From a virus, in the IMG/VR virus record IMGVR_UViG_3300042477_000211, positions 1-25,288 of that record: DNA of 25,288 bases, one strand, 5' to 3'. The first letter of the stretch is position 1, and each line of letters opens with the position of its first letter. The notes beneath the pieces were generated by a model. It worked only from the letters and a program-made list of their open reading frames with translations. It searched no databases and was not told the DNA's origin. The translations under genes were made by a program, and so were the position numbers. Of the stretch, positions 4,725 to 16,677 are shown one piece after another.

Positions 4725-5126
4725 TTAACGATTAAAAAAACGTGTGATTAAAACGCCAAGATTTACCCCTGTGATGCGTTTTATATTTTCCGAAATAGAA
4801 TACAACTCCACCGTCGCAATTAAGAACGCTGCCATGTACGTTATGTTAGGAAGGCTAAACGTATTCCTTGCACCCTCGAATATAAGGATAGCACAGAAAT
4901 AAACGACTATCTTTTCCATTGTGCGATAAAGCCCTTTACTATTTATCTTTTGCCCTTCCTTCTTTGCCGCGATGATACCCGTCGCCATGTCACCAAAAAC
5001 TACGAAAATTGTAAAAATCAAGAATCCTTTAATCGGAACAAAAAACGAAAATATCCAGCCACAACAAATAGCGTATGTTATTTTCTCCCATCCAAGGTGC
5101 AAAAGGTTTATTAAGGTTGCTTTCAT
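4725..5126 (-). CDS. phage holin (toxin secretion/phage lysis holin family)
   Basis: The 133-residue product has hydrophobic segments at about residues 17-30, 33-53, 70-86 and 92-108. Diagnostic features are FGDMATGIIAAKKEGQKINS, then GLYRTMEKIVVY, and a C-terminal ELYSISENIKRITG, matching the 'D..TGi.aA.k.....SskG' and 'E..SI.EN..rl' pattern of the phage_holin_4 (Bhl/TIGR01593-like) family. These proteins pore the inner membrane so the endolysin can reach peptidoglycan. The start overlaps the previous stop by one base (TAATG), and the amidase lies two genes downstream. Confidence 0.85.
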   Translation of the reverse strand: MKATLINLLHLGWEKITYAICCGWIFSFFVPIKGFLIFTIFVVFGDMATGIIAAKKEGQKINSKGLYRTMEKIVVYFCAILIFEGARNTFSLPNITYMAAFLIATVELYSISENIKRITGVNLGVLITRFFNR

Positions 5127-5722
5127 TATTCAAGTTTTATTAATCTCACATCACCATCCACGGTTGCAAATTTGCCATCAGCATATTTATACAAGTCGTA
5201 TTTAATACCGTTAAAGGCAAAGGAAACTTGATTGGTAAATGTAGATAAAAGTAAGTTGGTTGAAATGGTGTACACTTTGCCGTTGTCAGGATTAAAAATT
5301 AAACGCTTGTTGTTGTTTAACTCAATAACTCCATCAATGATTTCACCGTTAAAATTTAGCCTCCAGTCTCCGATAAACTTTGCCGTGTCTCTTTGAGCCG
5401 TTGTAAAATAGACAGGCTTACCGCTTATTTGAACGTGCAAATCATTGTAGTAATTAATCCTTTGCACGGCTTTACCCTTTGTAATAATAGGCTTTGCATG
5501 AATGGCTAACGTGTTGCTTTGCCTTTCAGCATCGGTTACAAGGCTTTGAATGGCAGTTGCACTATCGCCCAATATTTGCTTTGAGCCCGTGACTGTGCTA
5601 TCAGACAAAGTAGTTTGTTGAATAATGTAATAAATGGCTCCTTGCTTTTGTATGTACACAGTGTCTTTGACAACGTCTTGCGCAAAAGAAAACAAGGGAA
5701 GGAATAAAAATAGGTATCTCAT
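5126..5722 (-). CDS. exported protein of unknown function with Sec signal peptide, 198 aa
   Basis: I chose the ATG at 5722 (MRYLFLFLPLFSFAQDVVKD). It lies one base past the previous stop and gives a compact signal peptide ending FSFAQ, the usual Bacteroidetes cleavage context. A longer frame starting 36 bases upstream would overlap the previous gene and bury the signal. The mature part has a Ser/Thr/Gln-rich helical first half (SATAIQSLVTDAERQSNTLA) and a beta-rich C-terminal domain with WRLNFNGEIIDGVIELNNNK and FAFNGIKYDLYKYADGKF. It has no cysteine, hence no lipobox. It sits between the S74 fibre and the holin. It may be a tail accessory or a periplasmic lysis helper; I do not recognise a family. 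Confidence 0.65.
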   Translation of the reverse strand: MRYLFLFLPLFSFAQDVVKDTVYIQKQGAIYYIIQQTTLSDSTVTGSKQILGDSATAIQSLVTDAERQSNTLAIHAKPIITKGKAVQRINYYNDLHVQISGKPVYFTTAQRDTAKFIGDWRLNFNGEIIDGVIELNNNKRLIFNPDNGKVYTISTNLLLSTFTNQVSFAFNGIKYDLYKYADGKFATVDGDVRLIKLE

Positions 5723-5723
5723 T

Positions 5724-6917
5724 TTATTTATTTTCGAGGTTAATAATTCTTTGTTCAAGGGCTTTGATTAGCAGATTTTGTTCTTGTATGGCTTTGGTGA
5801 GGACTGGTATTAATTTAGTCATATCAAGATACATATCACCGTTATTCATTGTGCCCGTAACTTCGGGAATAATAGGAAACATATCTTCAACAATAAAACC
5901 TAAGTTTCTTTCCTCCCCCCATTTGTCTTTATTTATATAATCAAAGGAAACTGGATTAATTTGTAATAATTCATTTAAACCGTAGTTTAAAGTTTGAACA
6001 TTTTCCTTTGTATTTATTGACGATACAGGTGCTGATAAAACACCGTTAACATCTGCAAGAACAGCTCTACCGCTTGTTGCGCCAGCTAAGCTACTAAACT
6101 TAACTGCGCCTGTGGTCTTGATTAATGTTAAAGCATCAACTACATCCGATTGTCTAATTGTAAAATCACCTTGATTAGGATATCCGCTCATTAACAACCA
6201 ATTTACATCATTTGCTTGATTACCTAATAAACTCATTAATGCAAAATTTGTATCACTTGCTCTTATATCTAACGCAGGAACACCACCTGTAAATTTAAAC
6301 CTAACTTTACCATCTACATCTAATTTGTAAGTTGGATTTGTAGTTCCAATACCAACGTTTCCATCTCCTTTTACATACATTCTTGAAAATCCATTGGTAT
6401 TAAAACTAATATCTCTATTACCTTGAGAAATAAGAGATAATTTTGTAGAAGTACCTTCAATATAATGATATAAAGTACTTTCATTTTGGTCAAAATAATA
6501 AAAGTGCGATGTTCCATCGTTGTTTCCAAGTAAGTATATAGCGCCTGCACCAGACAAAGCTTTTACTTTTAATCCGCTATTTGCATTTAAAATACTACTA
6601 AACGTCTTTGCCCCATTTACCGTTTGCGTTCCATAAGTATTTACATAAGCAATCGAAGCCGTGTCCGCTCCAAGTTGCCGCCACTTTCGCCCACTTGCAG
6701 AAGCCTTGTAAGTGTAAAGATTTATATTTACCGTATCAAGCACAAAATATGCAGCCGTGTCACTCTTTGCCGTCAATGTGGTATCAGCAGCCACACCTCG
6801 CCAAATAAGCCCATCGGCAGTGGTCTGTTCTCCGAGCGTTATTTTTTGATTGCCGTTGCTCGGATATTGTGCCAAAGCAAAGCAAGGCAAAAGGAAGAGG
6901 AAAAGGAGTTGTTTCAT
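5724..6917 (-). CDS. tail fibre/spike with signal peptide and C-terminal S74 intramolecular chaperone
   Basis: The chosen ATG at 6917 gives MKQLLFLFLLPCFALAQYPS, a classical signal peptide, 17 bases after the large fibre gene ends; the frame could begin 48 bases earlier but would then overlap that gene. Domain order in the 397-residue form: signal (1-17); N-terminal module (about 18-85) with QYPSNGNQ, TTADGLIWRG and VLDTVNINLY, shared with the large fibre; TQTVNGAKTFSS repeat; beta-rich shaft with GNVGIGTTNPTYKLDV (about 187-201); C-terminal Peptidase_S74 chaperone (about 299-397) with SSINTKENVQTL (candidate self-cleavage Ser 299 or 300, Lys 304), INPVSFDY, RNLGFIVEDM and a final trimeric coiled coil (LTKAIQEQNLLIKALEQRI). 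S74 domains fold trimeric fibres and then cut themselves off. This is probably a receptor-binding fibre. Confidence 0.82.
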   Translation of the reverse strand: MKQLLFLFLLPCFALAQYPSNGNQKITLGEQTTADGLIWRGVAADTTLTAKSDTAAYFVLDTVNINLYTYKASASGRKWRQLGADTASIAYVNTYGTQTVNGAKTFSSILNANSGLKVKALSGAGAIYLLGNNDGTSHFYYFDQNESTLYHYIEGTSTKLSLISQGNRDISFNTNGFSRMYVKGDGNVGIGTTNPTYKLDVDGKVRFKFTGGVPALDIRASDTNFALMSLLGNQANDVNWLLMSGYPNQGDFTIRQSDVVDALTLIKTTGAVKFSSLAGATSGRAVLADVNGVLSAPVSSINTKENVQTLNYGLNELLQINPVSFDYINKDKWGEERNLGFIVEDMFPIIPEVTGTMNNGDMYLDMTKLIPVLTKAIQEQNLLIKALEQRIINLENK

Positions 6918-6934
6918 GTTTATGTTTTTAATGA

Positions 6935-9900
6935 TTAATTTTCGCTTCTTTGCATAATTATCCAATTTGTACCATCGCTAACAAGTGTAACCGCTCTATT
7001 AGTTGTTGGATTTAAAATTGCTGTACCTGCACTACCTGTTGGAGGTATTCCAAAAGGAATAACATTTGAAGAAAAAGATATTAATTGACCTGTACCTGAT
7101 TGTCTTAAATGTAATTCTTTTCCAGGATAAGTTGCAGCATTAGGAAGGGTTAATGTTGTTAAGACACTTGTATTTATGTCCTGCCATGTAGTATTTACAC
7201 TTACTGTAAATGATGAACTTGTGCTATATGCGTAATTACGCTCCAACCAATTAGTTTTTACTCTACCTCCAAATGTACCCGTAGAACTAACGGATAATGT
7301 ACCCGTAAATGTCTTATTTCCTGCAAAACTTTGAGTAATTGTGTTTACTACTCCCGAAGCTGCAGCACCTGCATCCGTAATTGTAATATTAGGCGTAGCA
7401 CCTCCCGATGATGACAAAGGAGATGAAGCCGTAACACTTGTAACCCCTCCACTTGTTGCGCTTAATATACCGCCTGATAAAGATAAACCGCTACCTAATG
7501 TAACTGTAGCAAATCTATCGGTAGAAGATAGTCCCGCAAGCCTTGTAGCTTGATAGGTGTAATCTTTAAAAAATGCTATACCAGTAAGCGTAGTTGATCC
7601 TAAAAAACTTTTATCTCCTGTAAAAATTTGCGAGCCACTGTGAGTAACATAACCGCTTACATTTACATCTGCAGCAGTCATACTAATATTAGGAGTAGTG
7701 CCACCAGATGAAGCCATTGGACTAGTTGCTGTAACGCTTATCAATGTTCCAACGCCTGCACCAATAGCCGTTCTCGTATCAGCTGCATTTAAAAGAGTAA
7801 TTGTATTATCTGTATTAACTTTAATAAATTTATCAGATACACTATTGGTAAGACTAAACAAAGATTTACCCATTGCCGTAGCTCCAAAATTAGTCAATGC
7901 TGCATCCGCTGTAGTTGCACCTGTACCACCGTTTAATAATGGTAAAGCCGTTCCGCTATATGTTAACGCTAAAGTTCCGCTTGTTGTAACAGGGGAACCT
8001 CCTACGGTAAATATTGAAGGTGCCGTTAATCCTACGCTTGTAACTGTACCAGTGCCACCGCCTGATGATGTGTAATTAGGAATATTTAAAGTAGTACCGT
8101 TAAATGTAGCTAATCCACTTGTACCTGTTGTGGTAAGCGTTATATTATTTTGCTTTGTGGCAAATCTGGATGTGAGGTTTAATTGTGTTGTGTCGGCTGT
8201 ATTAAATTTAAGATTAATTCGATTTGATAATGAAGCCGTATCAGTTGTATTTAATTTCAAATTAATTCTATTTGAAAGTAATACAGTGTCGTTTCCTACT
8301 AATGTACCAACAGCTAAATTACCACTACCTAATAAAGTTGTTCCGTTAACCGTTTTTATATTGCTACCCGAAACTAAAGTATTTTGCTTTGCTGCAAATC
8401 TGGAAGTAAGATTTAATTGAGTTGTGTCGGCAAATGAAAATTTATTATTAAAAGTTGTCCAATCTATTGATGTAAGAAATCCATTTACGCTACCACTCGC
8501 TTGATTTATGGTAATTGTATTACTTGTATTTACTAAAGGAGTAGTAAAAGTTAAAGCCGTTTGTTTATTATTAAAAGTTGTCCAATCCGTAGAAGTTAAA
8601 TAACCATTCCTGCCACTTGTAGCACTTAATAATTCTATTTTTGGAGTAGTTGTTTTATCGGTTATTGATATTGGATTCCCAGCCGTTGCCGAAGCATCTA
8701 CCTCTGTAACTGTACCTGCGCCAATGGCTGCTCTAAAATTAGTTGCCGTTAATGCACTCACTGTGTTATCCGCATTAAATCTAGGGAAAGAAATAGCCGA
8801 AGGATTAGTTAAAGTGAACATTGATTGTCCTATTGTTGTACCTCCTAAACTTGTTCGAGCCGTTGCAGCAATTAAGCCTGTAGCACCTCCATCCCATTTT
8901 AATCTATCTGTATAGGCTGTGTTCCAATTTGTGCTATTATTAGGAATAGATGAAGCCCATGTAGTGCCAGTTGACAATGCTATCCCTGCATCTGGATAAA
9001 CAGGATTTGGGAAAGTACCAGTGCCAACCGAACCAATGCCAGACACTGTAACCACCGTATAATTTGAACCAGCCTTGAAGGAGTTTGAAACAATAGTAAT
9101 TTTATTAGTATCAGTTAAATTATATTGGTCATTAATAAGAAGCTGGCCATTTCTAAAAACTAAAATATATTGTTTTAATTGAATAGGGAATTTAGGCGTA
9201 ATTGTCCAAGTTAAAACGCTAGTTGTGGCTGGCGCGTATTCCTGTTTTAAAATCTTTATGGTATCATTCCCAATAGCAACGTCAACAATTGAATCTCTTA
9301 TTCTAGAAAATATAACCGCTGAATCTAAAACTAATGTACCTGTTGTGGTAATGGTGCCACCTGTTAAGCCGTATCCGGTCGCTACACTTGTTACCGTGCC
9401 ATTTCCTTTTGCATTTATTCTTGAGGATAATGAAGCCGTATCAGTTGTATTTAATTTACTTGCAAATCTTGTAGTAAGATTTAATAAACTTGTATCTGTC
9501 AACTCCATTAATACAGATAAATCAGCCGATACTGTACCCGTTGTTGTTATTGGATTTGGGCTAACTGTTATTCCCGTACCACCGGATATAGATGTTAAAC
9601 TTCCCGATCCTCCACCACTTCCTGCACCGCCACCACGGGGAAAAATCACCGTGTAATTATCACCAACTTTGAATGATGAAGCTGCAATAATAACACTTGT
9701 TGAAGTTGGTATTGTGTATTGCGAAGGCAAAAGGATTTGTCCGTTGCGATACACTTGAATAACATTAACTCCCCCAGGAATCAAAGTATCACTTTGTGTC
9801 CATGTCAAAGTTGAAGATGTTACACCTGTCGTATAATCCTGTCTTGCATATAACCTTCCCGTTGTGTCCGCGTAGGCTTTTGTTGCGTAATTAGCTAACA

Positions 9901-10945
9901 TCGAAGCCGTGTCACTTACTAAAAGGGCTGCCGTTGTATCGCGCCATAATCCACCAGAATAATATAAAGATGCCTTGTCAACTGGCGAAGTTATACGTAC
10001 ATCATGAAGCTCGTCTAATTCCTGCCCGTTGCGAATTTTGACAAATAATTCTCCAGAACCAGCGTTAGTTTTGACGCATACTCCGATATATACACTGTGT
10101 TGTGGAGCTTGTGGTTTTGTAGATGTTAAACCACCTGCCACCGTTGGCGATAAATAAACCGCGCTATCTTCTGTTAATGCTGATGTGTTTAATCCTGTTA
10201 TTAATCCTTCGGTTATAACATATCCGCTTTGATTGTTTAAAATATCTTCAGCTACTATTCCAAATGTATTAGCCGAAAAGGCATCGGTAACGCCTAAAGC
10301 TTTAGCAACGGTTATTCTATTTCCCTGACTTCCTGATAAATAAACAGCCGTTCCTTTTGTCAATGTTGCGCCTGTTCTGTTATTTACCCTTTGATGTAAT
10401 TGTTGCCCGATAACATTGGTCACTAAACCACCTTTTAATCCTTGTATTAAACTTCCCTGGGTATCATTATATTCTACCTCACCCACTCCCACCGTGCCAT
10501 CCTTTGCCGTGTTAAAAGTAATGGAATCGAAAGGCATTGTTAAGCCTCCTGCACCACTTATTAAATTCCAAACGTTAGAAGTAAAATCAAAAGAATATAA
10601 TTTTAAATTTACTGTGTCAATAATTACCCATGCGTTTTGGTTGTTTGTTGGCTGAATTGAAGCTGTGTCGGATATTGAACCGCGCCACACGAGCCCGTCT
10701 CCCGTAGTTTGGAAACCTAATCTTTGCTTATTACCTGTTGTTGGGTATTGAGCAATGGCAAAAGACGAAGCTAAAATAATTAAAACGATTGATAACCCTT
10801 GCCGTTTATTGCCTACTTTGTCAATAGCTTTACCAATAAACTTTCGAGCTATTCCCATGACTAATTCATTCGCTAAAACTTTGGCAATATTCCCAACGGC
10901 TTTTAAAAACTTTCTTTCTTTTTTAGGTGCTTTAATTTCTTCCAT
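6935..10945 (-). CDS. giant repetitive tail fibre/baseplate protein, 1336 aa, with internal signal-like helix
   Basis: Domain order: a basic amphipathic N-terminus (1-49); a hydrophobic signal-like segment GLSIVLIILASSFAIAQ (50-66); the QYPTTGNK/TTGDGLVWRG module (66-130) shared with the next fibre; a module at about 155-315 with NNRTGATLTKGTAVYLSGSQ, ANTFGIVAEDI and HSVYIGVCVKT, found in many phage tail proteins; two LTWT-NGQ modules (about 370-436 and 570-634) around a Gly-rich linker; then hundreds of Ser/Thr/Asn-rich beta repeats (GYLTSTDWTTFNNKQ, NGFLTSIDWTTFNNK, DTTQLNLTSRFA, DTASLSNRIN, LLNGGTGATT); and a C-terminal beta domain (TWQDINTSVLTTLTLPNA). It is about three times the length of the neighbouring fibre, has no S74 domain, and starts one base inside the upstream stop. 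It probably forms the long tail-tip fibre. Confidence 0.8.
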   Translation of the reverse strand: MEEIKAPKKERKFLKAVGNIAKVLANELVMGIARKFIGKAIDKVGNKRQGLSIVLIILASSFAIAQYPTTGNKQRLGFQTTGDGLVWRGSISDTASIQPTNNQNAWVIIDTVNLKLYSFDFTSNVWNLISGAGGLTMPFDSITFNTAKDGTVGVGEVEYNDTQGSLIQGLKGGLVTNVIGQQLHQRVNNRTGATLTKGTAVYLSGSQGNRITVAKALGVTDAFSANTFGIVAEDILNNQSGYVITEGLITGLNTSALTEDSAVYLSPTVAGGLTSTKPQAPQHSVYIGVCVKTNAGSGELFVKIRNGQELDELHDVRITSPVDKASLYYSGGLWRDTTAALLVSDTASMLANYATKAYADTTGRLYARQDYTTGVTSSTLTWTQSDTLIPGGVNVIQVYRNGQILLPSQYTIPTSTSVIIAASSFKVGDNYTVIFPRGGGAGSGGGSGSLTSISGGTGITVSPNPITTTGTVSADLSVLMELTDTSLLNLTTRFASKLNTTDTASLSSRINAKGNGTVTSVATGYGLTGGTITTTGTLVLDSAVIFSRIRDSIVDVAIGNDTIKILKQEYAPATTSVLTWTITPKFPIQLKQYILVFRNGQLLINDQYNLTDTNKITIVSNSFKAGSNYTVVTVSGIGSVGTGTFPNPVYPDAGIALSTGTTWASSIPNNSTNWNTAYTDRLKWDGGATGLIAATARTSLGGTTIGQSMFTLTNPSAISFPRFNADNTVSALTATNFRAAIGAGTVTEVDASATAGNPISITDKTTTPKIELLSATSGRNGYLTSTDWTTFNNKQTALTFTTPLVNTSNTITINQASGSVNGFLTSIDWTTFNNKFSFADTTQLNLTSRFAAKQNTLVSGSNIKTVNGTTLLGSGNLAVGTLVGNDTVLLSNRINLKLNTTDTASLSNRINLKFNTADTTQLNLTSRFATKQNNITLTTTGTSGLATFNGTTLNIPNYTSSGGGTGTVTSVGLTAPSIFTVGGSPVTTSGTLALTYSGTALPLLNGGTGATTADAALTNFGATAMGKSLFSLTNSVSDKFIKVNTDNTITLLNAADTRTAIGAGVGTLISVTATSPMASSGGTTPNISMTAADVNVSGYVTHSGSQIFTGDKSFLGSTTLTGIAFFKDYTYQATRLAGLSSTDRFATVTLGSGLSLSGGILSATSGGVTSVTASSPLSSSGGATPNITITDAGAAASGVVNTITQSFAGNKTFTGTLSVSSTGTFGGRVKTNWLERNYAYSTSSSFTVSVNTTWQDINTSVLTTLTLPNAATYPGKELHLRQSGTGQLISFSSNVIPFGIPPTGSAGTAILNPTTNRAVTLVSDGTNWIIMQRSEN
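8226..8257 (-). repeat. 32-bp exact direct repeat, copy 1 (inside giant fibre)
   Basis: The stretch GATAATGAAGCCGTATCAGT... (+ strand, 32 bases) recurs identically at 9426-9457, exactly 1200 bases away and therefore in the same reading frame. It encodes part of the DTASLS-type beta repeat. Identity at the DNA level, including third positions, suggests recent duplication or recombination. Confidence 0.85.
8441..8464 (-). repeat. 24-bp exact direct repeat, copy 1 (DWTTFNNK module)
   Basis: TTTATTATTAAAAGTTGTCC plus AATC (+ strand) recurs at 8564-8587, 123 bases away and in frame. It encodes the DWTTFNNK core of the 'GYLTSTDWTTFNNK' fibre repeat, of which two tandem copies are visible in the protein. 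Confidence 0.85.
8564..8587 (-). repeat. 24-bp exact direct repeat, copy 2 (DWTTFNNK module)
   Basis: This is the second copy of the repeat at 8441-8464, encoding the other DWTTFNNK core. The 123-base spacing equals a 41-residue protein repeat unit. Confidence 0.85.
9426..9457 (-). repeat. 32-bp exact direct repeat, copy 2 (inside giant fibre)
   Basis: This is the second copy of the repeat at 8226-8257. The flanks diverge right after the shared stretch (TTTCAA after copy 1, TTTACT after copy 2), so the identity is local. Confidence 0.85.
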
Positions 10946-11316: not shown

Positions 11317-13531
11317 CAAGTTCTATTTTAAAGTAATCACCTTGCCAAATTTCTGTTTTTAAATCTAATGATCCTCTTTCAAAAACGTAATATCCGGATG
11401 AATATTCTATGACCTTGTGAGGTAGGTAGGGATTGTCAACGGATAGATTTTGGAATGGCATATCTACCATGCGTAGCTTTGGTGTGAGTTGTCCGCGAAT
11501 AACTTCATTAACCAATAACTGCGTGACGTTGTTAAATCCGGATCCGTTGCCTACATCCCAACTGCTACTATTTTCATACGTGCCAGATTCAAGAACCTTT
11601 AATCCTCCATCCGTTGTTTTACTAGGCCCGTCACCTATATATGTATCAAGGCTAAAAACTGTGGAAGATTTATCGTCGTTATCAGAACCGTATTCAAGAA
11701 TATCGCTTTGCCCAGATACGGCACCAGTAGGTAAAAATTCAAGGTAATTGTTACTAAGTAAATAAGATACGGCAAAGTTGGAAATTATACTACTTCCTGC
11801 CTCATTTCGCATTTCTTTTAATCTCATTTCCCATACGTACTCAGCACTTTCTGGAATATCTAAGGTATCAAATGTGATAGTTTTATAAGCAACGAAAGCA
11901 GCATCAGCCGTTATTGTTTCTGTATTAAATTCATATTCGTAAAATGTATTTTCCCACGTTGCTGGCTCTAATTGGAAGTTAAATCCATTCGTGTAAGTCA
12001 CGCCTCTTTTTAAGTATTTATTTTCCTGCTTTACCTGTAACGATTTTATTTTACCGGTAAACTTTGGAGTAGAAACACTATCTAATTTTAATGTGTCTGT
12101 ATTAGTGGATAAAATGACATAATCGTAATCACCACTTTCTGTAATTGTTTTTGTTACTCCTCCTAAACGTAATCTAAGACTACCACTATTTTCTATATCA
12201 ACTTTTATTTTAACATAATATTTCCTTCCTGATGTAACTGTGAATGTAGTGTAAAACGCTTCCGTAGCTATTAAAGTACCTTCAAGTATTTTATTATCAA
12301 TTATCCATCCGCTGCCTAATGTCCAGTTAGCACTTTCAAAACCTTGTAAAGGAAAACTATTGATTATAGATGCTACCTTAACGGCAAACACAAATTGAAA
12401 CGGCTCAAAGTTTACAGGATTAAGTGCCTGAGCATAAAATCCAAGTATTCCAGTATATGACAATCGAGCATCCGGATTAGAGGCATCTAATGTCGGAGTA
12501 GTGGTAATAACTGGAGTTGTATTTGTTGTGTAGTTATATTCTACGCCTGCCAATAAGTTTTGTTTAGCAAAATGATTATACCTAATTACCACGTTTTTTA
12601 AAGCAGGATAATAAGTCCATTTACCACCGCTTAATCTCATTAAGTCGCTTCCAGGTAGATTGGTCTGAATATTAGAAAGCGTTAAATCTGCGGTAAATGT
12701 ACCTGATTGTTGGATCCCAAAAGCATTATATTTAAAGTATCTTTTAGTTGCAGGTGTTCTTGAATATTCATTGACTTGGATAAACCAATATTGATTCCCA
12801 CTAAATATTAATCTTGCTCCAAACGTTTGGCAAATCTTTTTTAGAACTTCGTAGCAACTTTGGTAAACATAATTGCTTTTAGTGTCTTTATGGTAAAATG
12901 CCCGATGCTGAATAACTGTCAATAAAGAATAATCAGAGGCAGCATTGTATGCTATTGTATTTTCATGCCAGTTAAAAATAGTATGTAACACTGGCAAACT
13001 ATTTGCCACTAAGTTCTCTTGTACAAAATCCAACTGATTTAAACAGTTTAAAATATGCTGTACAACTGTGTCCTGCCCGTTGTAGGGCCCAACCGCGCTT
13101 TTATAATCCAATGTCTTTAGCCATCCTAATCCATCTATTGCAGATATTTGAGCCTGATAACCTATCACTAATGGCACGTCTTCAAATTCCACCAAATCTG
13201 TAACTATATAGCCATACCATTTAAATGATACTGTTGTGTTATCATCCTCGTAGGCGGTCAGCTCCATTGTGAACCTTCCCTCAACTGCCAATCCAATATC
13301 AAGAAGTAATGTTTCAAGATCACTATTATTTATTAATAAAGACAATGAACAACGTGAGCCAATAATAGGAGTAAATCTTTCCTGACCCTGCTGACTTTCA
13401 CTGTCATATTGCAGCTGCAAACCAATAGTATCAAAATCATAAGTCATACCGGAAAAGACTTTGTCTTTAATAGCAACTACTATCTTCCTGCCTTTCTCGT
13501 TATATACTGTGGTTTGAAACCTTGCTGCCAT
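11309..13531 (-). CDS. putative baseplate hub/tail-associated (Tal/Dit-like) protein, 740 aa
   Basis: This large protein directly follows the tape measure gene (one-base TAATG overlap), the position of the distal-tail and tail-associated proteins of siphoviruses. The N-terminal part (about 1-260) is beta-rich with a conserved-looking core: FTPIIGSRCSLSLLINN, VSFKWYGYIVTDLVEFED, ISAIDGLGWLKTLDYK, and SCYEVLKKICQTFGARLIFS, which recalls hub proteins of Bacteroidetes phages. Residues about 392-502 (GFESANWTLGSGW ... KFTGKIKSLQVKQ) look like a carbohydrate-binding jelly-roll inserted in the middle. The C-terminus is beta-rich and ends with FERGSLDLKTEIWQGDYFKI. Function is assigned by position and general appearance; no lytic motif is visible. 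Confidence 0.65.
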   Translation of the reverse strand: MAARFQTTVYNEKGRKIVVAIKDKVFSGMTYDFDTIGLQLQYDSESQQGQERFTPIIGSRCSLSLLINNSDLETLLLDIGLAVEGRFTMELTAYEDDNTTVSFKWYGYIVTDLVEFEDVPLVIGYQAQISAIDGLGWLKTLDYKSAVGPYNGQDTVVQHILNCLNQLDFVQENLVANSLPVLHTIFNWHENTIAYNAASDYSLLTVIQHRAFYHKDTKSNYVYQSCYEVLKKICQTFGARLIFSGNQYWFIQVNEYSRTPATKRYFKYNAFGIQQSGTFTADLTLSNIQTNLPGSDLMRLSGGKWTYYPALKNVVIRYNHFAKQNLLAGVEYNYTTNTTPVITTTPTLDASNPDARLSYTGILGFYAQALNPVNFEPFQFVFAVKVASIINSFPLQGFESANWTLGSGWIIDNKILEGTLIATEAFYTTFTVTSGRKYYVKIKVDIENSGSLRLRLGGVTKTITESGDYDYVILSTNTDTLKLDSVSTPKFTGKIKSLQVKQENKYLKRGVTYTNGFNFQLEPATWENTFYEYEFNTETITADAAFVAYKTITFDTLDIPESAEYVWEMRLKEMRNEAGSSIISNFAVSYLLSNNYLEFLPTGAVSGQSDILEYGSDNDDKSSTVFSLDTYIGDGPSKTTDGGLKVLESGTYENSSSWDVGNGSGFNNVTQLLVNEVIRGQLTPKLRMVDMPFQNLSVDNPYLPHKVIEYSSGYYVFERGSLDLKTEIWQGDYFKIELDA

Positions 13532-15585
13532 TATTGTACTCTGTTAAGACCTTTTTGTGACCTGTTAAGTAATATAATCAAATCATTACCGCTTATCCTT
13601 GTTTCAAGGCTGCCACCTACACCCATATCTCCCATCATTGATTTTAACTTTGATAAAGGTGCTATTACTTCTGGGTCAACTCGTGCATTTCTGTTATCCC
13701 CTACGGTTGCCATTGTTGGTCCGTATGCTAAACCTCCTTCGGCTAATTTTGGTGCGCCAATTTTCATAACTAAACTTTTCCCTAAATTACCCGCCAATGC
13801 TGCTATTGCAGGCGCAATGGCTAACATAAAAGGAGTAGGAGGTAAACCTGCTAATGCTTTAGCAACAAACATTCTAATAAGATTGCCTATTATTTCAGCA
13901 ACACTTTTTTTAACTGCTTGTGCAAGTTCTTTCATGCTCTCAAAACCACCAGCCGCTAAATCAGCAAAAGTATTTATTCCTTCCACTAATATAGCTTGCA
14001 TAGGTGTTAACATATCTGCGGCAGATTTTACAGCAGGTGTAATATTATTAAATGATTTAGCTACATCTTCATTTGTTTGTTTTAATCTTTCATTTGCAGC
14101 TGAAATACTTTCTATTTTATCTGGAAGTAAATCTAAGGTAGGCAATAAATTTACTGTATCTATTGGAGTATTTAAAGCCGCTCCAACGCCTTTACCTCCT
14201 CCCGTTCCTCCTCCTGTCGGTGCGCCACCGCTGCCAAATACTAATTCACCATTTCCTTCTGTTGCACCACCACCTCCACCTTTGCCCGGAGCAGCCATGA
14301 ATAAGCTTTTAAATTTGCCTTTAAGACTATCGACTGTTTCGCCTATTGTTTTAAATTCCGCTGCAACTACTTTCTGTTCTGCTTGATATTTTGTCATGCC
14401 ACTAACATCAAATAATTGATACCCCATTGCTTTTTGAAGCTTATCAATAGCCATCATAAAATCAGCTACTCCTTTGTTAGCACTGTTTTTTATGTTTATC
14501 CAAATGTTTGTAAACCTATCGCTAAAAGCTTTCCAGTTGTCGTAAACGTATAAAGCAATCGCACCAACTGCCGCAATGGCTAAAGTAACACCAAGAATAG
14601 CAGGATTAGCAAGTATTTTTGCGAAGGCACCGGATATTACCGTAGATAATTTTTTTACAGTATCCATTATTAAACGAGTAGTACCTATCAATGCACTAAA
14701 AGTAGTAATCAATTTACCTACTATAAATATTGCAGGCCCTAAAGCTGCAACCAATAAACCAGCCTTAACAATAAAGCCCTGTGTTTCCGGATTAAGTGAC
14801 TTAAATCCATCTACTAACCTTTGTAATCCTGTACTTAATGCTGCGGCAACTGCCTCTAAGTTTAATGTTTCATTTATTGCTTTACCTAACTCTGCTAATG
14901 ATGCACTAACATTATCCCTTAAATTATCAAACGTATTAGCTAGACCACCGTTTGCCCTTTCCAAATTTCCTAAAGCACCAACACTTCTTTTTATAAATTC
15001 TTCGCTGCTTATTCCTAACTCCCTTATTCCTTCGGCAGTCACTACACCAAATTCTTCTTTCATCACCCTCGCAAACTCTGGCAACCTTTCTTTAATCTGA
15101 TTAAGATCCTCCTGCGTAACTTTACCAACCGCGCTTATCTGTGATAGTGCCAACACTACACCATCAAATTGTTCTGCACCACCTCCTGCCCTTGCTACGG
15201 CATTACCAAACTGTGTTATAGTTTCCCTTGCAGCGTCGGCATTCATCCCTACACTTTGTAAAGAAGCGGATGCCTTCACAACTTCGGGTAAAGCAAGTCC
15301 CGGATTTTCGGCAACCTTGCGAAGTTTCTCCATTTCTATTCCTGCCTCCTCGCTACTTCCCATAATGGCTATTAAACCATTTTGTAGCTTTTCAATGTCG
15401 GCAAATGATTTTAAGGAAGCAGCACCAAGTCCAATGATAGGCAAAGTTAACGACTGAGTTAATGTAGTGCCTACATTTTGCATCTTACTACCAAACCTTG
15501 ACATACTACGCTCAACCTTTCCAAGTTCTTTGTCAAGATTTGAAACGTCTACACCAAGTTTTAAATTAAGTTTACCTATTGCCAT
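13531..15585 (-). CDS. tail tape measure protein, 684 aa
   Basis: The N-terminus (LGVDVSNLDKELGKVERSMS, then FGSKMQNVGTTLTQSLTLPI) and the following region (about 60-210, with AGGGAEQFDGVVLALSQISA and GKVTQEDLNQIKERLPEFA) match the tape-measure domain of phage tails (TIGR02675-type). Hydrophobic segments at about 270-300 and 330-348 may enter the host membrane during DNA delivery. A Gly-rich linker covers about 434-470, and another hydrophobic stretch near the C-terminus (FMLAIAPAIAALAGNLGK) precedes a final small domain. At roughly 1.5 angstrom per residue it would specify a tail near 100 nm. It follows the G/GT chaperone genes, the standard order. A 325-codon antisense open frame here is a composition artefact. 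Confidence 0.9.
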   Translation of the reverse strand: MAIGKLNLKLGVDVSNLDKELGKVERSMSRFGSKMQNVGTTLTQSLTLPIIGLGAASLKSFADIEKLQNGLIAIMGSSEEAGIEMEKLRKVAENPGLALPEVVKASASLQSVGMNADAARETITQFGNAVARAGGGAEQFDGVVLALSQISAVGKVTQEDLNQIKERLPEFARVMKEEFGVVTAEGIRELGISSEEFIKRSVGALGNLERANGGLANTFDNLRDNVSASLAELGKAINETLNLEAVAAALSTGLQRLVDGFKSLNPETQGFIVKAGLLVAALGPAIFIVGKLITTFSALIGTTRLIMDTVKKLSTVISGAFAKILANPAILGVTLAIAAVGAIALYVYDNWKAFSDRFTNIWINIKNSANKGVADFMMAIDKLQKAMGYQLFDVSGMTKYQAEQKVVAAEFKTIGETVDSLKGKFKSLFMAAPGKGGGGGATEGNGELVFGSGGAPTGGGTGGGKGVGAALNTPIDTVNLLPTLDLLPDKIESISAANERLKQTNEDVAKSFNNITPAVKSAADMLTPMQAILVEGINTFADLAAGGFESMKELAQAVKKSVAEIIGNLIRMFVAKALAGLPPTPFMLAIAPAIAALAGNLGKSLVMKIGAPKLAEGGLAYGPTMATVGDNRNARVDPEVIAPLSKLKSMMGDMGVGGSLETRISGNDLIILLNRSQKGLNRVQ

Positions 15586-15837
15586 TTATAATTCTTTATC
15601 CCATTTGTCAAATATTGTTTTGTCAGTATTTGTCAAATTTCTTTTAGTTTCTTTTTTTGTCGGATTCTCCCATGGAAACTCAATTAAATCTTTTGGCTTT
15701 AAACTCTTACCTTTTGCCGTATGGACATTTAGTAAAAGTGTTGTCTGCCATCTAACCCTTTCCCATTCGGTTTGCTCCTGTTGTTCAAAGAAATTATTAT
15801 AACCTTGCATAGCTACAACAACCTCTCTAAAACTCAT
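15586..15837 (-). CDS. tail assembly chaperone T domain, made as a -1 frameshift extension of G
   Basis: The 83-residue stretch from the ATG at 15837 is only the C-terminal part of the coding frame. The same frame stays open upstream to the slippery site at 15927 and there encodes LTLEYIERFCFGVLRF and PPSQYNEMSFREVVVAMQGY, which fits the 'lg.gvLr.sPeefw.mTprE...a..Gy' pattern of tail assembly chaperones. The ATG at 15837 lies in the middle of this motif, so independent initiation there would truncate the domain. The predicted G-T fusion has 102 residues of G plus 113 from this frame, about 215 residues. GT chaperones recruit the tail tube protein to the tape measure, which is the next gene downstream, starting at the adjacent base. 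Confidence 0.8.
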   Translation of the reverse strand: MSFREVVVAMQGYNNFFEQQEQTEWERVRWQTTLLLNVHTAKGKSLKPKDLIEFPWENPTKKETKRNLTNTDKTIFDKWDKEL

Positions 15838-15863
15838 TTCATTATATTGCGAAGGTGGGAACC

Positions 15864-16232
15864 TTAAAACTCCGAAACAAAATCGCTCGATGTATTCAAG
15901 GGTGAGCTCTCCGCCTTCGCTACTACGTTTTTTTGGCTCTCATCTTCTGGAGGTGAAATCTCATTTGAAATCATTTCCATTATACGGGCTATGCCACCCA
16001 TATCAGTGTCTACCAAATCGCAAAAAGATTGTAAGTCATAAGGACATTTTTCTCCTTTAGTTTTATAACCTTGTTGAACGCCTGCGAAAGCAAGTTCAAG
16101 GGCAAGTAAAAGATCTTCTCCTAAAAGGGAAAGGTCACTTAATTTAAGTTTCCTCTCCCTTAGAAATGTACCTAACACATACATACCAAATTTAATCGGT
16201 ATGGATGTGTTGGCTATTGTTATTGTTTTCAT
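15864..16232 (-). CDS. tail assembly chaperone G
   Basis: The 122-residue product (MKTITIANTSIPIKFGMYVL, then GTFLRERKLKLSDLSLLGED) has an N-terminal beta hairpin followed by helices (LLLALELAFAGVQQGYKTKG, CPYDLQSFCDLVD, GGIARIMEMISNEI) and a disordered charged tail where the slippery site lies. This matches the tail assembly chaperone G of siphoviruses in layout and position, between the tail tube gene and the tape measure gene. Ribosomes that do not slip end at the TAA at 15864-15866 and make G; those that slip back one base at 15927-15933 make the G-T fusion. The frameshift site is near codon 102, so the last 20 residues are unique to G. Confidence 0.8.
   Translation of the reverse strand: MKTITIANTSIPIKFGMYVLGTFLRERKLKLSDLSLLGEDLLLALELAFAGVQQGYKTKGEKCPYDLQSFCDLVDTDMGGIARIMEMISNEISPPEDESQKNVVAKAESSPLNTSSDFVSEF
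15927..15933 (-). promoter_or_regulatory. -1 programmed ribosomal frameshift site (A AAA AAC)
   Basis: In the reading frame of G the codons are CAA AAA AAC GTA, so the heptamer is A AAA AAC, an X XXY YYZ site in exactly the right phase. After a -1 slip the frame reads AAA AAA CGT AGT and stays open to the stop of the T ORF at 15586. I see no strong Shine-Dalgarno-like stimulator upstream and could not establish a convincing downstream stem. Confidence 0.8.
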
Positions 16233-16248: not shown

Positions 16249-16677
16249 TTATGCTTTAACTGTCTTTGTAATTGCACCAGTCACCTCAAAGGATGCTGAA
16301 TAGCTAACATTTTCTTCCACACCTGCGTTAAGGTCTAAGGATGTACAAATGGCTTTCATAGTGTACACATTATCGCCAACAACGTCTGTAGTAAATTTAA
16401 TAGTAAGTTCCGTACCTGCTGTTAAGTCGGTAAACAAATCATCAAATAGGTAATTGGTAGAAGCATCGCCCGGGCCCGCGTATAATGCCTCCGTAGAAAG
16501 TGTTCCAGAAAGTTGCCCTTTTTTAACTTCCCTCCATCCACCAGCTGCGCTATCTTTTGTAAGAATTTCACGCATAGCAGATGAAATGTTCATTTGGCAC
16601 GATGTGGCATAACCGATAGCAGTACTATCTTTATAAAGCCTCATTAAAGTACCATTAATTATCCCTGTAGTTGGCAT
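16249..16677 (-). CDS. major tail tube protein, 142 aa
   Basis: The product (MPTTGIINGTLMRLYKDSTA) is beta-rich with one helix, as in siphovirus tail tube proteins of the TP901-1/phage_tail_2 group. Supporting landmarks are ATSCQMNISSAMREILTKDS, WREVKKGQLSGTLSTEALY near the middle, FDDLFTDLTAGTELTIKFTT, and a C-terminal ENVSYSASFEVTGAITKTV, typical of the family's final strands. It would polymerise around the tape measure to form the tube. It lies two bases before the small gene upstream and is followed by chaperone G, the conserved order of tail genes. No Ig-like domain is fused. Confidence 0.87.
   Translation of the reverse strand: MPTTGIINGTLMRLYKDSTAIGYATSCQMNISSAMREILTKDSAAGGWREVKKGQLSGTLSTEALYAGPGDASTNYLFDDLFTDLTAGTELTIKFTTDVVGDNVYTMKAICTSLDLNAGVEENVSYSASFEVTGAITKTVKA

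Follow-up and report, generated by a model that had tools for sequence, protein, structure and literature searches.

A lambda-type G/GT tail assembly chaperone gene pair with a probable -1 ribosomal frameshift in a virus related to Bacteroidota phages

A -1 frameshift by which a single mRNA yields two forms of a helper protein for tail building is well known. In phage lambda, a programmed -1 frameshift gives rise to gpG and gpGT (Levin 1993; Xu 2004; described in PMC5009743). The tape measure protein is bound by both, the major tail subunit by the T part, and the ratio is about 30:1 (PMC5009743). For the haloarchaeal virus HCTV-2, the site A_AAA_AAC was described as the g-t frameshift site (PMC5009743). 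Closer to the locus analysed here stand several named phages with homologous T proteins. In Cellulophaga phage phi39:1 (gp19/gp20, KC821626) the T protein has 29% identity (E 2e-6) to ours, its gene adjoins the tape measure gene and the two frames overlap at an A run. In Bacteroides phages F4 and Bacuni_F1 and in Bacteroidales prophages the corresponding position holds a homologous T, likewise in the -1 frame. Both genes of phi39:1 and the G and T genes of F4 are annotated as hypothetical proteins; the G/GT frameshift is thus unannotated in these named relatives. A literature search of incomplete coverage found no description of a G/GT frameshift in Bacteroidota phages.

The window, by which we mean the whole stretch of DNA analysed, is a virus record of 25.3 kb. 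Its tail region follows the order tail tube, G, T and tape measure, as given by Pfam matches to the flanking genes, and a tail terminator/completion protein is encoded farther upstream than the tail tube gene. We consider it very probable, judging from sequence comparison, that this locus encodes a G/GT tail assembly chaperone pair of the lambda type, expressed by -1 ribosomal frameshifting. The relevant features are the following.

16249 to 16677, minus strand: major tail tube protein (PF06199, E 1.5e-10; phrog_1407, E 1.3e-17)
15864 to 16232, minus strand: G, predicted zero-frame product of the tail assembly chaperone pair, 122 aa (ORF list, translation)
15940 to 15942, minus strand: TGA, last stop of the T frame upstream of the heptamer and 5' bound of the shift window
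15927 to 15933, minus strand: slippery heptamer A AAA AAC, in phase (translation; 250/250 relatives)
15921 to 15926, minus strand: spacer GTAGTA, 6 nt (fold analysis)
15849 to 15920, minus strand: 3' stem-loop, probable frameshift stimulator (fold z-scores, MFE folds, compensation, RNAalifold)
15586 to 15927, minus strand: T segment in the -1 frame, C-terminal domain of the predicted fusion (frame translation; phrog_16333; constraint in the overlap)
15835 to 15837, minus strand: internal ATG, T start by automatic calling (83 aa, 15837 to 15586; ORF list)
13531 to 15585, minus strand: tape measure protein (PF20155, E 2e-22; TIGR02675, E 1.3e-12)

The G reading frame starts with the ATG at 16232 and ends with the TAA at 15864, so that 20 final codons lie past the slippery site. 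The heptamer is read by G as CAA (15935), AAA (15932) and AAC (15929), which is the X XXY YYZ phase; a reading of the sequence alone had called the phase correct, and every coordinate it gave was confirmed. The same reading had described the -1 frame as open into T. Indeed, no stop interrupts this frame from 15939 until its end at 15588-15586, the last preceding stop being the TGA at 15942-15940. The interframe peptide ERFCFGVLRFPPSQY quoted there is present, and the whole interframe stretch is RSSEGGELTLEYIERFCFGVLRFPPSQYNE. After the shift, the T segment would begin with the codon CGT at 15927-15925, and translation across the heptamer gives the claimed fusion length of 215 residues. Farther downstream, three minus-strand open reading frames (5126-5758, 5724-6965 and 6935-10945) contain hydrophobic, signal-peptide-like segments with FAQ, ALAQ or AIAQ ends. 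Two of the three have a DGLIWRG-like motif in common after the hydrophobic segment, and one of the three encodes a repetitive protein of 1336 aa with no significant PHROG match.

With the lambda system the window shares a G gene with a T extension in the -1 frame, the adjoining tape measure gene and a phased slippery heptamer. It differs in the heptamer itself (A AAA AAC), in the conserved 3' stem-loop and in that T matches the lambda T family, PF06223, only below threshold (E 0.16). In each of the genomic features that were tested, the window fits a G/GT pair of the lambda type, and this likeness is one of arrangement, not of demonstrated sequence homology. HCTV-2 has the same heptamer and the same kind of gene pair, and its host is archaeal. 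In phi39:1, unlike in the window, the run is A8 and T is in the +1/-2 frame, and F4, Bacuni_F1 and the Bacteroidales prophages have nine A's instead of a heptamer with a stem-loop.

The relatives on which the comparison rests were collected by scans of viral contigs, which returned many close relatives and then more distant ones, and by a search with the pattern WERxRWQT, which led to a diverse set. IMG/VR contigs may hold assembly errors, above all in A runs. Among annotated phages, T matches were found in phi39:1, in Bacteroides phages F2, F4 and Bacuni_F1 and in one faecal phage record. A scan of genome contigs (alignment A2) gave 21 loci, nearly all from Bacteroidales; a first such scan (alignment A1) confirmed no locus. 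Among all the loci examined, from viral and genome contigs, 20 have no recognised G, most of them being cut near a contig end. By these sequence matches the family appears as a large, mostly environmental one that is related to Bacteroidota phages. The sequence-only reading had spoken of a Bacteroidota phage. This assignment is likely in view of the T homologues in Cellulophaga and Bacteroides phages and in Bacteroidales genomes; searches with the terminase and the head-tail connector did not reveal the host. One contig from a Lachnospiraceae-labelled metagenome-assembled genome carries a Bacteroidales-type G/T junction with nine A's; it may be mis-binned.

At the heptamer the frame under amino-acid constraint changes: upstream it is that of G, downstream the -1 frame. 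For this comparison 87 distinct relatives of equal length were used, and a change from the consensus was scored if two or more sequences carried it. Upstream of the heptamer, an omega-like ratio of 0.13 was obtained in the G frame. Between the heptamer and the end of G, the G frame has a ratio of 2.6 and the -1 frame one of 0.11, while T beyond the end of G has 0.25 in its own frame; all these values are simple counts among related, non-independent sequences with no codon model, and the contrast is nonetheless large. A Fisher test on third-position changes gave a p of 1e-9. The maximum-likelihood breakpoint of the constraint is at offset 295 (2-unit interval 294-319), and the heptamer occupies offsets 299-305. 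In six distinct relatives a stop in the T frame abuts the heptamer; therefore, the shift is not upstream of the heptamer in these. In a divergent subclade the G tail after the heptamer differs in length and sequence, and the -1 peptide stays similar.

These observations also bear on the idea that T is a separate protein, which initiates at its own ATG (15837) with no fusion being made. Automatic callers do give this ORF, and the internal ATG is kept in all 87 relatives from the window clade. However, constraint on the -1 frame is equally strong before this ATG and in the remainder of T, the match to phrog_16333 begins 14 residues upstream of the ATG, and a start there would lose the first two predicted helices. 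In addition, the Met is not conserved in distant homologues, and in several of these G and T share no more than about 13 nt, located at the A run. Hence we regard two separate proteins as a very remote alternative to the fusion. Because the internal ATG is conserved throughout the window clade, some free T may be made besides G-T.

The protein matches place the pair among tail assembly chaperones in an indirect way. The window T matches phrog_16333, a group of unknown function, with E 1.5e-17, and so do all of 38 diverse T sequences. Phage_TAC_6 (PF09550; best E 1.1e-7) is matched by 11 of these 38 and phrog_441, a tail assembly chaperone, by one, while 3 of 37 G homologues weakly match Phage_TAC_12 (PF12363). 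In the window itself, G has no match in Pfam, and neither G nor T is above threshold in Pfam or NCBIfam. The predicted fold of G (pLDDT 86) resembles a predicted viral 'tail assembly chaperone protein' (best E so named 7e-5); it had no match with E below 1 against the PDB, and profile searches of solved structures returned nothing relevant. The tail chaperone landmarks named in the sequence-only reading are thus not seen in the window's own G and T, whose tie to these families runs only through homologues and the fold match. To this extent, the homologues and the fold match lend some support to G and T as putative tail assembly chaperones. In the model of T (pLDDT 84) the helices H11-21 and H26-31 precede the internal ATG, and therefore the 83-aa ORF would be a truncated domain. 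The mechanical ORF call, whose 83-residue product had already been suspected to start within its domain, cuts T in the middle of it; both the helices and the phrog_16333 match begin upstream. The comparative evidence documents a frameshifted tail chaperone in a family whose T matches a group of unknown function.

The heptamer motif by itself is weak evidence, since A6N heptamers are frequent in the AT-rich window and a phased slippery heptamer of any kind occurs in the G/T overlap in 17% of codon shuffles. Its conservation is a different matter. A AAA AAC is found at the same place and in the same phase in all 250 loci of the cluster to which the window belongs, a number that includes many repeat fetches of the same contigs and comprises 100 distinct sequences. 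Diversity is zero at all seven positions, and the preceding codon varies (CAA, GAA, GGA or AGA). Beyond this cluster, T sequences were grouped into 41 clusters at 60% identity. In 40 of them the G/T overlap contains a slippery heptamer in phase, against 4.1 expected from codon shuffles of each G gene, and the largest count among 200,000 simulations was 14. By these comparisons, the conservation of the heptamer is not due to chance.

The same data speak to a sequencing error or a decayed gene, in which a one-base error in the A run would have split a single original ORF. Homopolymer runs are error-prone, and locus L274 (A8) and its near relative L275 (A9) do differ at the run. On the other side, the arrangement recurs in the 250 loci of the window clade. 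T is in the -1 frame in 37 of the 41 clusters (+1/-2 in the other 4), from many metagenomes and genomes and with a phased slippery motif, and an in-frame G-T fusion was found in none of the loci examined. An artefact of this kind is therefore practically negligible as an explanation.

A 3' structure about 5-9 nt past the heptamer is the typical stimulator of -1 ribosomal frameshifting. In the window, a stem-loop that the sequence-only reading did not mention starts 6 nt past the heptamer and so lies within this range. Its closing helix has 7 bp, formed by GCGAAGG (15920-15914) and CCTTCGC (15855-15849), and encloses an inner helix. Fold z-scores vary with the window length: they are -3.9 to -4.3 in 80-nt windows beginning 0-5 nt after the heptamer, -0.4 to +0.8 in 40-60 nt windows, which do not contain the 3' arm, and about -1.3 in 120-nt windows. 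The closing helix is present in the minimum-free-energy folds of all 100 distinct sequences, and the outer helix was recovered independently by RNAalifold. One closing pair is changed from A-U to G-C in eight sequences, with the G-U intermediate in two more. Over the whole structure, 21 cells are changed on both sides compared with 6.9 in shuffles (0/500), whereas the number of pairs with two-sided changes, three, is unexceptional (144/500); these statistics lean on a structure that was derived from the window. Four degenerate third codon positions within the arms are invariant (P 0.002 for four random sites, the choice of sites being post hoc). The stem-loop is thus a probable frameshift stimulator. 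An Rfam scan of the window gave no RNA family, and from inspection by eye we claim no Shine-Dalgarno-like stimulator upstream.

Transcriptional slippage would be another way to reach T: an extra A inserted by RNA polymerase in the A7 run would put T in frame in the mRNA itself, and ribosomes would reach it with no shift of their own. Programmed slippage of this kind uses homopolymers of about 8-9 or more, irrespective of the codon phase. In the window the site has seven A's in a row, and in most homologues the run there is exactly A9, in all three phases. The A9 homologues thus have runs of the kind that a polymerase would use, whereas the window clade falls outside this range: its run has only six or seven A's, a C at its end and one fixed phase. 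Moreover, members with GGA or AGA before AAA AAC have six A's only and still keep the heptamer exactly, which favours slippage of tandem tRNAs over that of the polymerase in this clade. A conserved 3' stem-loop with a 6-nt spacer is likewise expected of ribosomal and not of polymerase slippage. Consequently, we consider transcriptional slippage improbable for the window.

For the -1 ribosomal frameshift we propose the following course. The majority of ribosomes would finish G at the stop at 15864. The stem-loop, beginning 6 nt past the heptamer, would delay a minority of them, which would slip back by one base on A AAA AAC, where the tRNAs on AAA and AAC would re-pair with AAA AAA. These ribosomes would resume at CGT in the -1 frame and give minor amounts of the predicted 215-residue G-T protein. 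By analogy to lambda (PMC5009743), the tape measure protein would be coated by G and by G-T, the latter through its G part, and the T part would recruit the tail tube subunit, so that the ratio of G to G-T would matter for tail assembly. That the shift takes place in the ribosome is inferred, as are how efficient it is and what G and G-T do. In E. coli, frameshifting occurs far less readily at A_AAA_AAC than at A_AAA_AAG (PMC5009743), and the efficiency could therefore be low. The stem-loop and the tRNAs of the host may be reasons why A AAA AAC suffices, and the site in HCTV-2 (PMC5009743) makes A AAA AAC plausible as a g-t shift site by precedent. Taken together, the frame switch, the conservation, the stem-loop and the matches of the homologue family bear out the earlier proposal of a G/GT pair flanked by the genes for tail tube and tape measure.

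The homologues with long A runs suggest a different picture. In 26 of the 41 clusters the run at the junction is exactly A9. It occurs in each of the three codon phases (10, 11 and 5 clusters), and 25 of these 26 clusters have T in the -1 frame. Other long runs are A8 in three clusters and A10 in one. Elsewhere in the same loci, runs of at least eight A's comprise 18 A8, 8 A9 and 2 A10, which results in a P of 5e-11 for 26 A9 runs among 30. Four more distant genome loci (L417-L420) also have A9, and all of the Bacteroidales prophages examined belong to this long-run type. The run at these junctions (L157-L195, L274-L294, L392 and L417-L420) almost always has exactly nine A's. A9 clusters have weaker downstream structure than clusters with a short slippery site (one-sided Mann-Whitney p 0.007, a post hoc comparison), and some A9 clusters do show such structure. 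Exactly nine A's in all phases with weaker structure suggest slippage by RNA polymerase. The four clusters with T in the +1/-2 frame have A8 or A9 runs and are more easily explained by polymerase slippage; loci with T in this frame are L156 (phi39:1), L274, L294 and L333. On the other hand, a run of nine A's contains a phased heptamer in any phase, so ribosomal slippage is compatible with the A9 lineages as well.

The slippage of dnaX was reportedly studied by Larsen in 2000. Homologous dnaX genes use either mechanism, a ribosomal frameshift in E. coli and polymerase slippage at an A9 run in Thermus (PMC1088944), and it is at a length of nine that many bacterial genomes begin to show selection against polymerase slippage (PMC1088944). 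Unlike our gene pair, dnaX is a cellular replicase gene, and in the phage family we infer the A9 mechanism. We give even chances to the view that one gene pair is served by two recoding machines, -1 ribosomal slippage, often with 3' structure, in the window clade and some others and RNA-polymerase slippage on the A9-type run in most lineages, among them all Bacteroidales prophages examined. If so, the mechanism would have switched repeatedly while the fusion product was kept; on the T tree, which has few well-supported branches, parsimony gives eight changes between long and short runs, and the starred branches force only two. The family also offers a clean test of whether the same fusion arises by ribosomal or by polymerase slippage in different phages.

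At a few junctions other motifs are found. G GGA AAG, which we take to be lambda's own heptamer, is present in homologue L197 (2507-2513) and also in L317, L350 and L397. In L329 and L341 the junction has no A run and contains instead a run of five G's (CAG GGG GAG and AAG GGG GAG), followed by strong downstream structure (z about -5); slippage on the G's is possible in these two.
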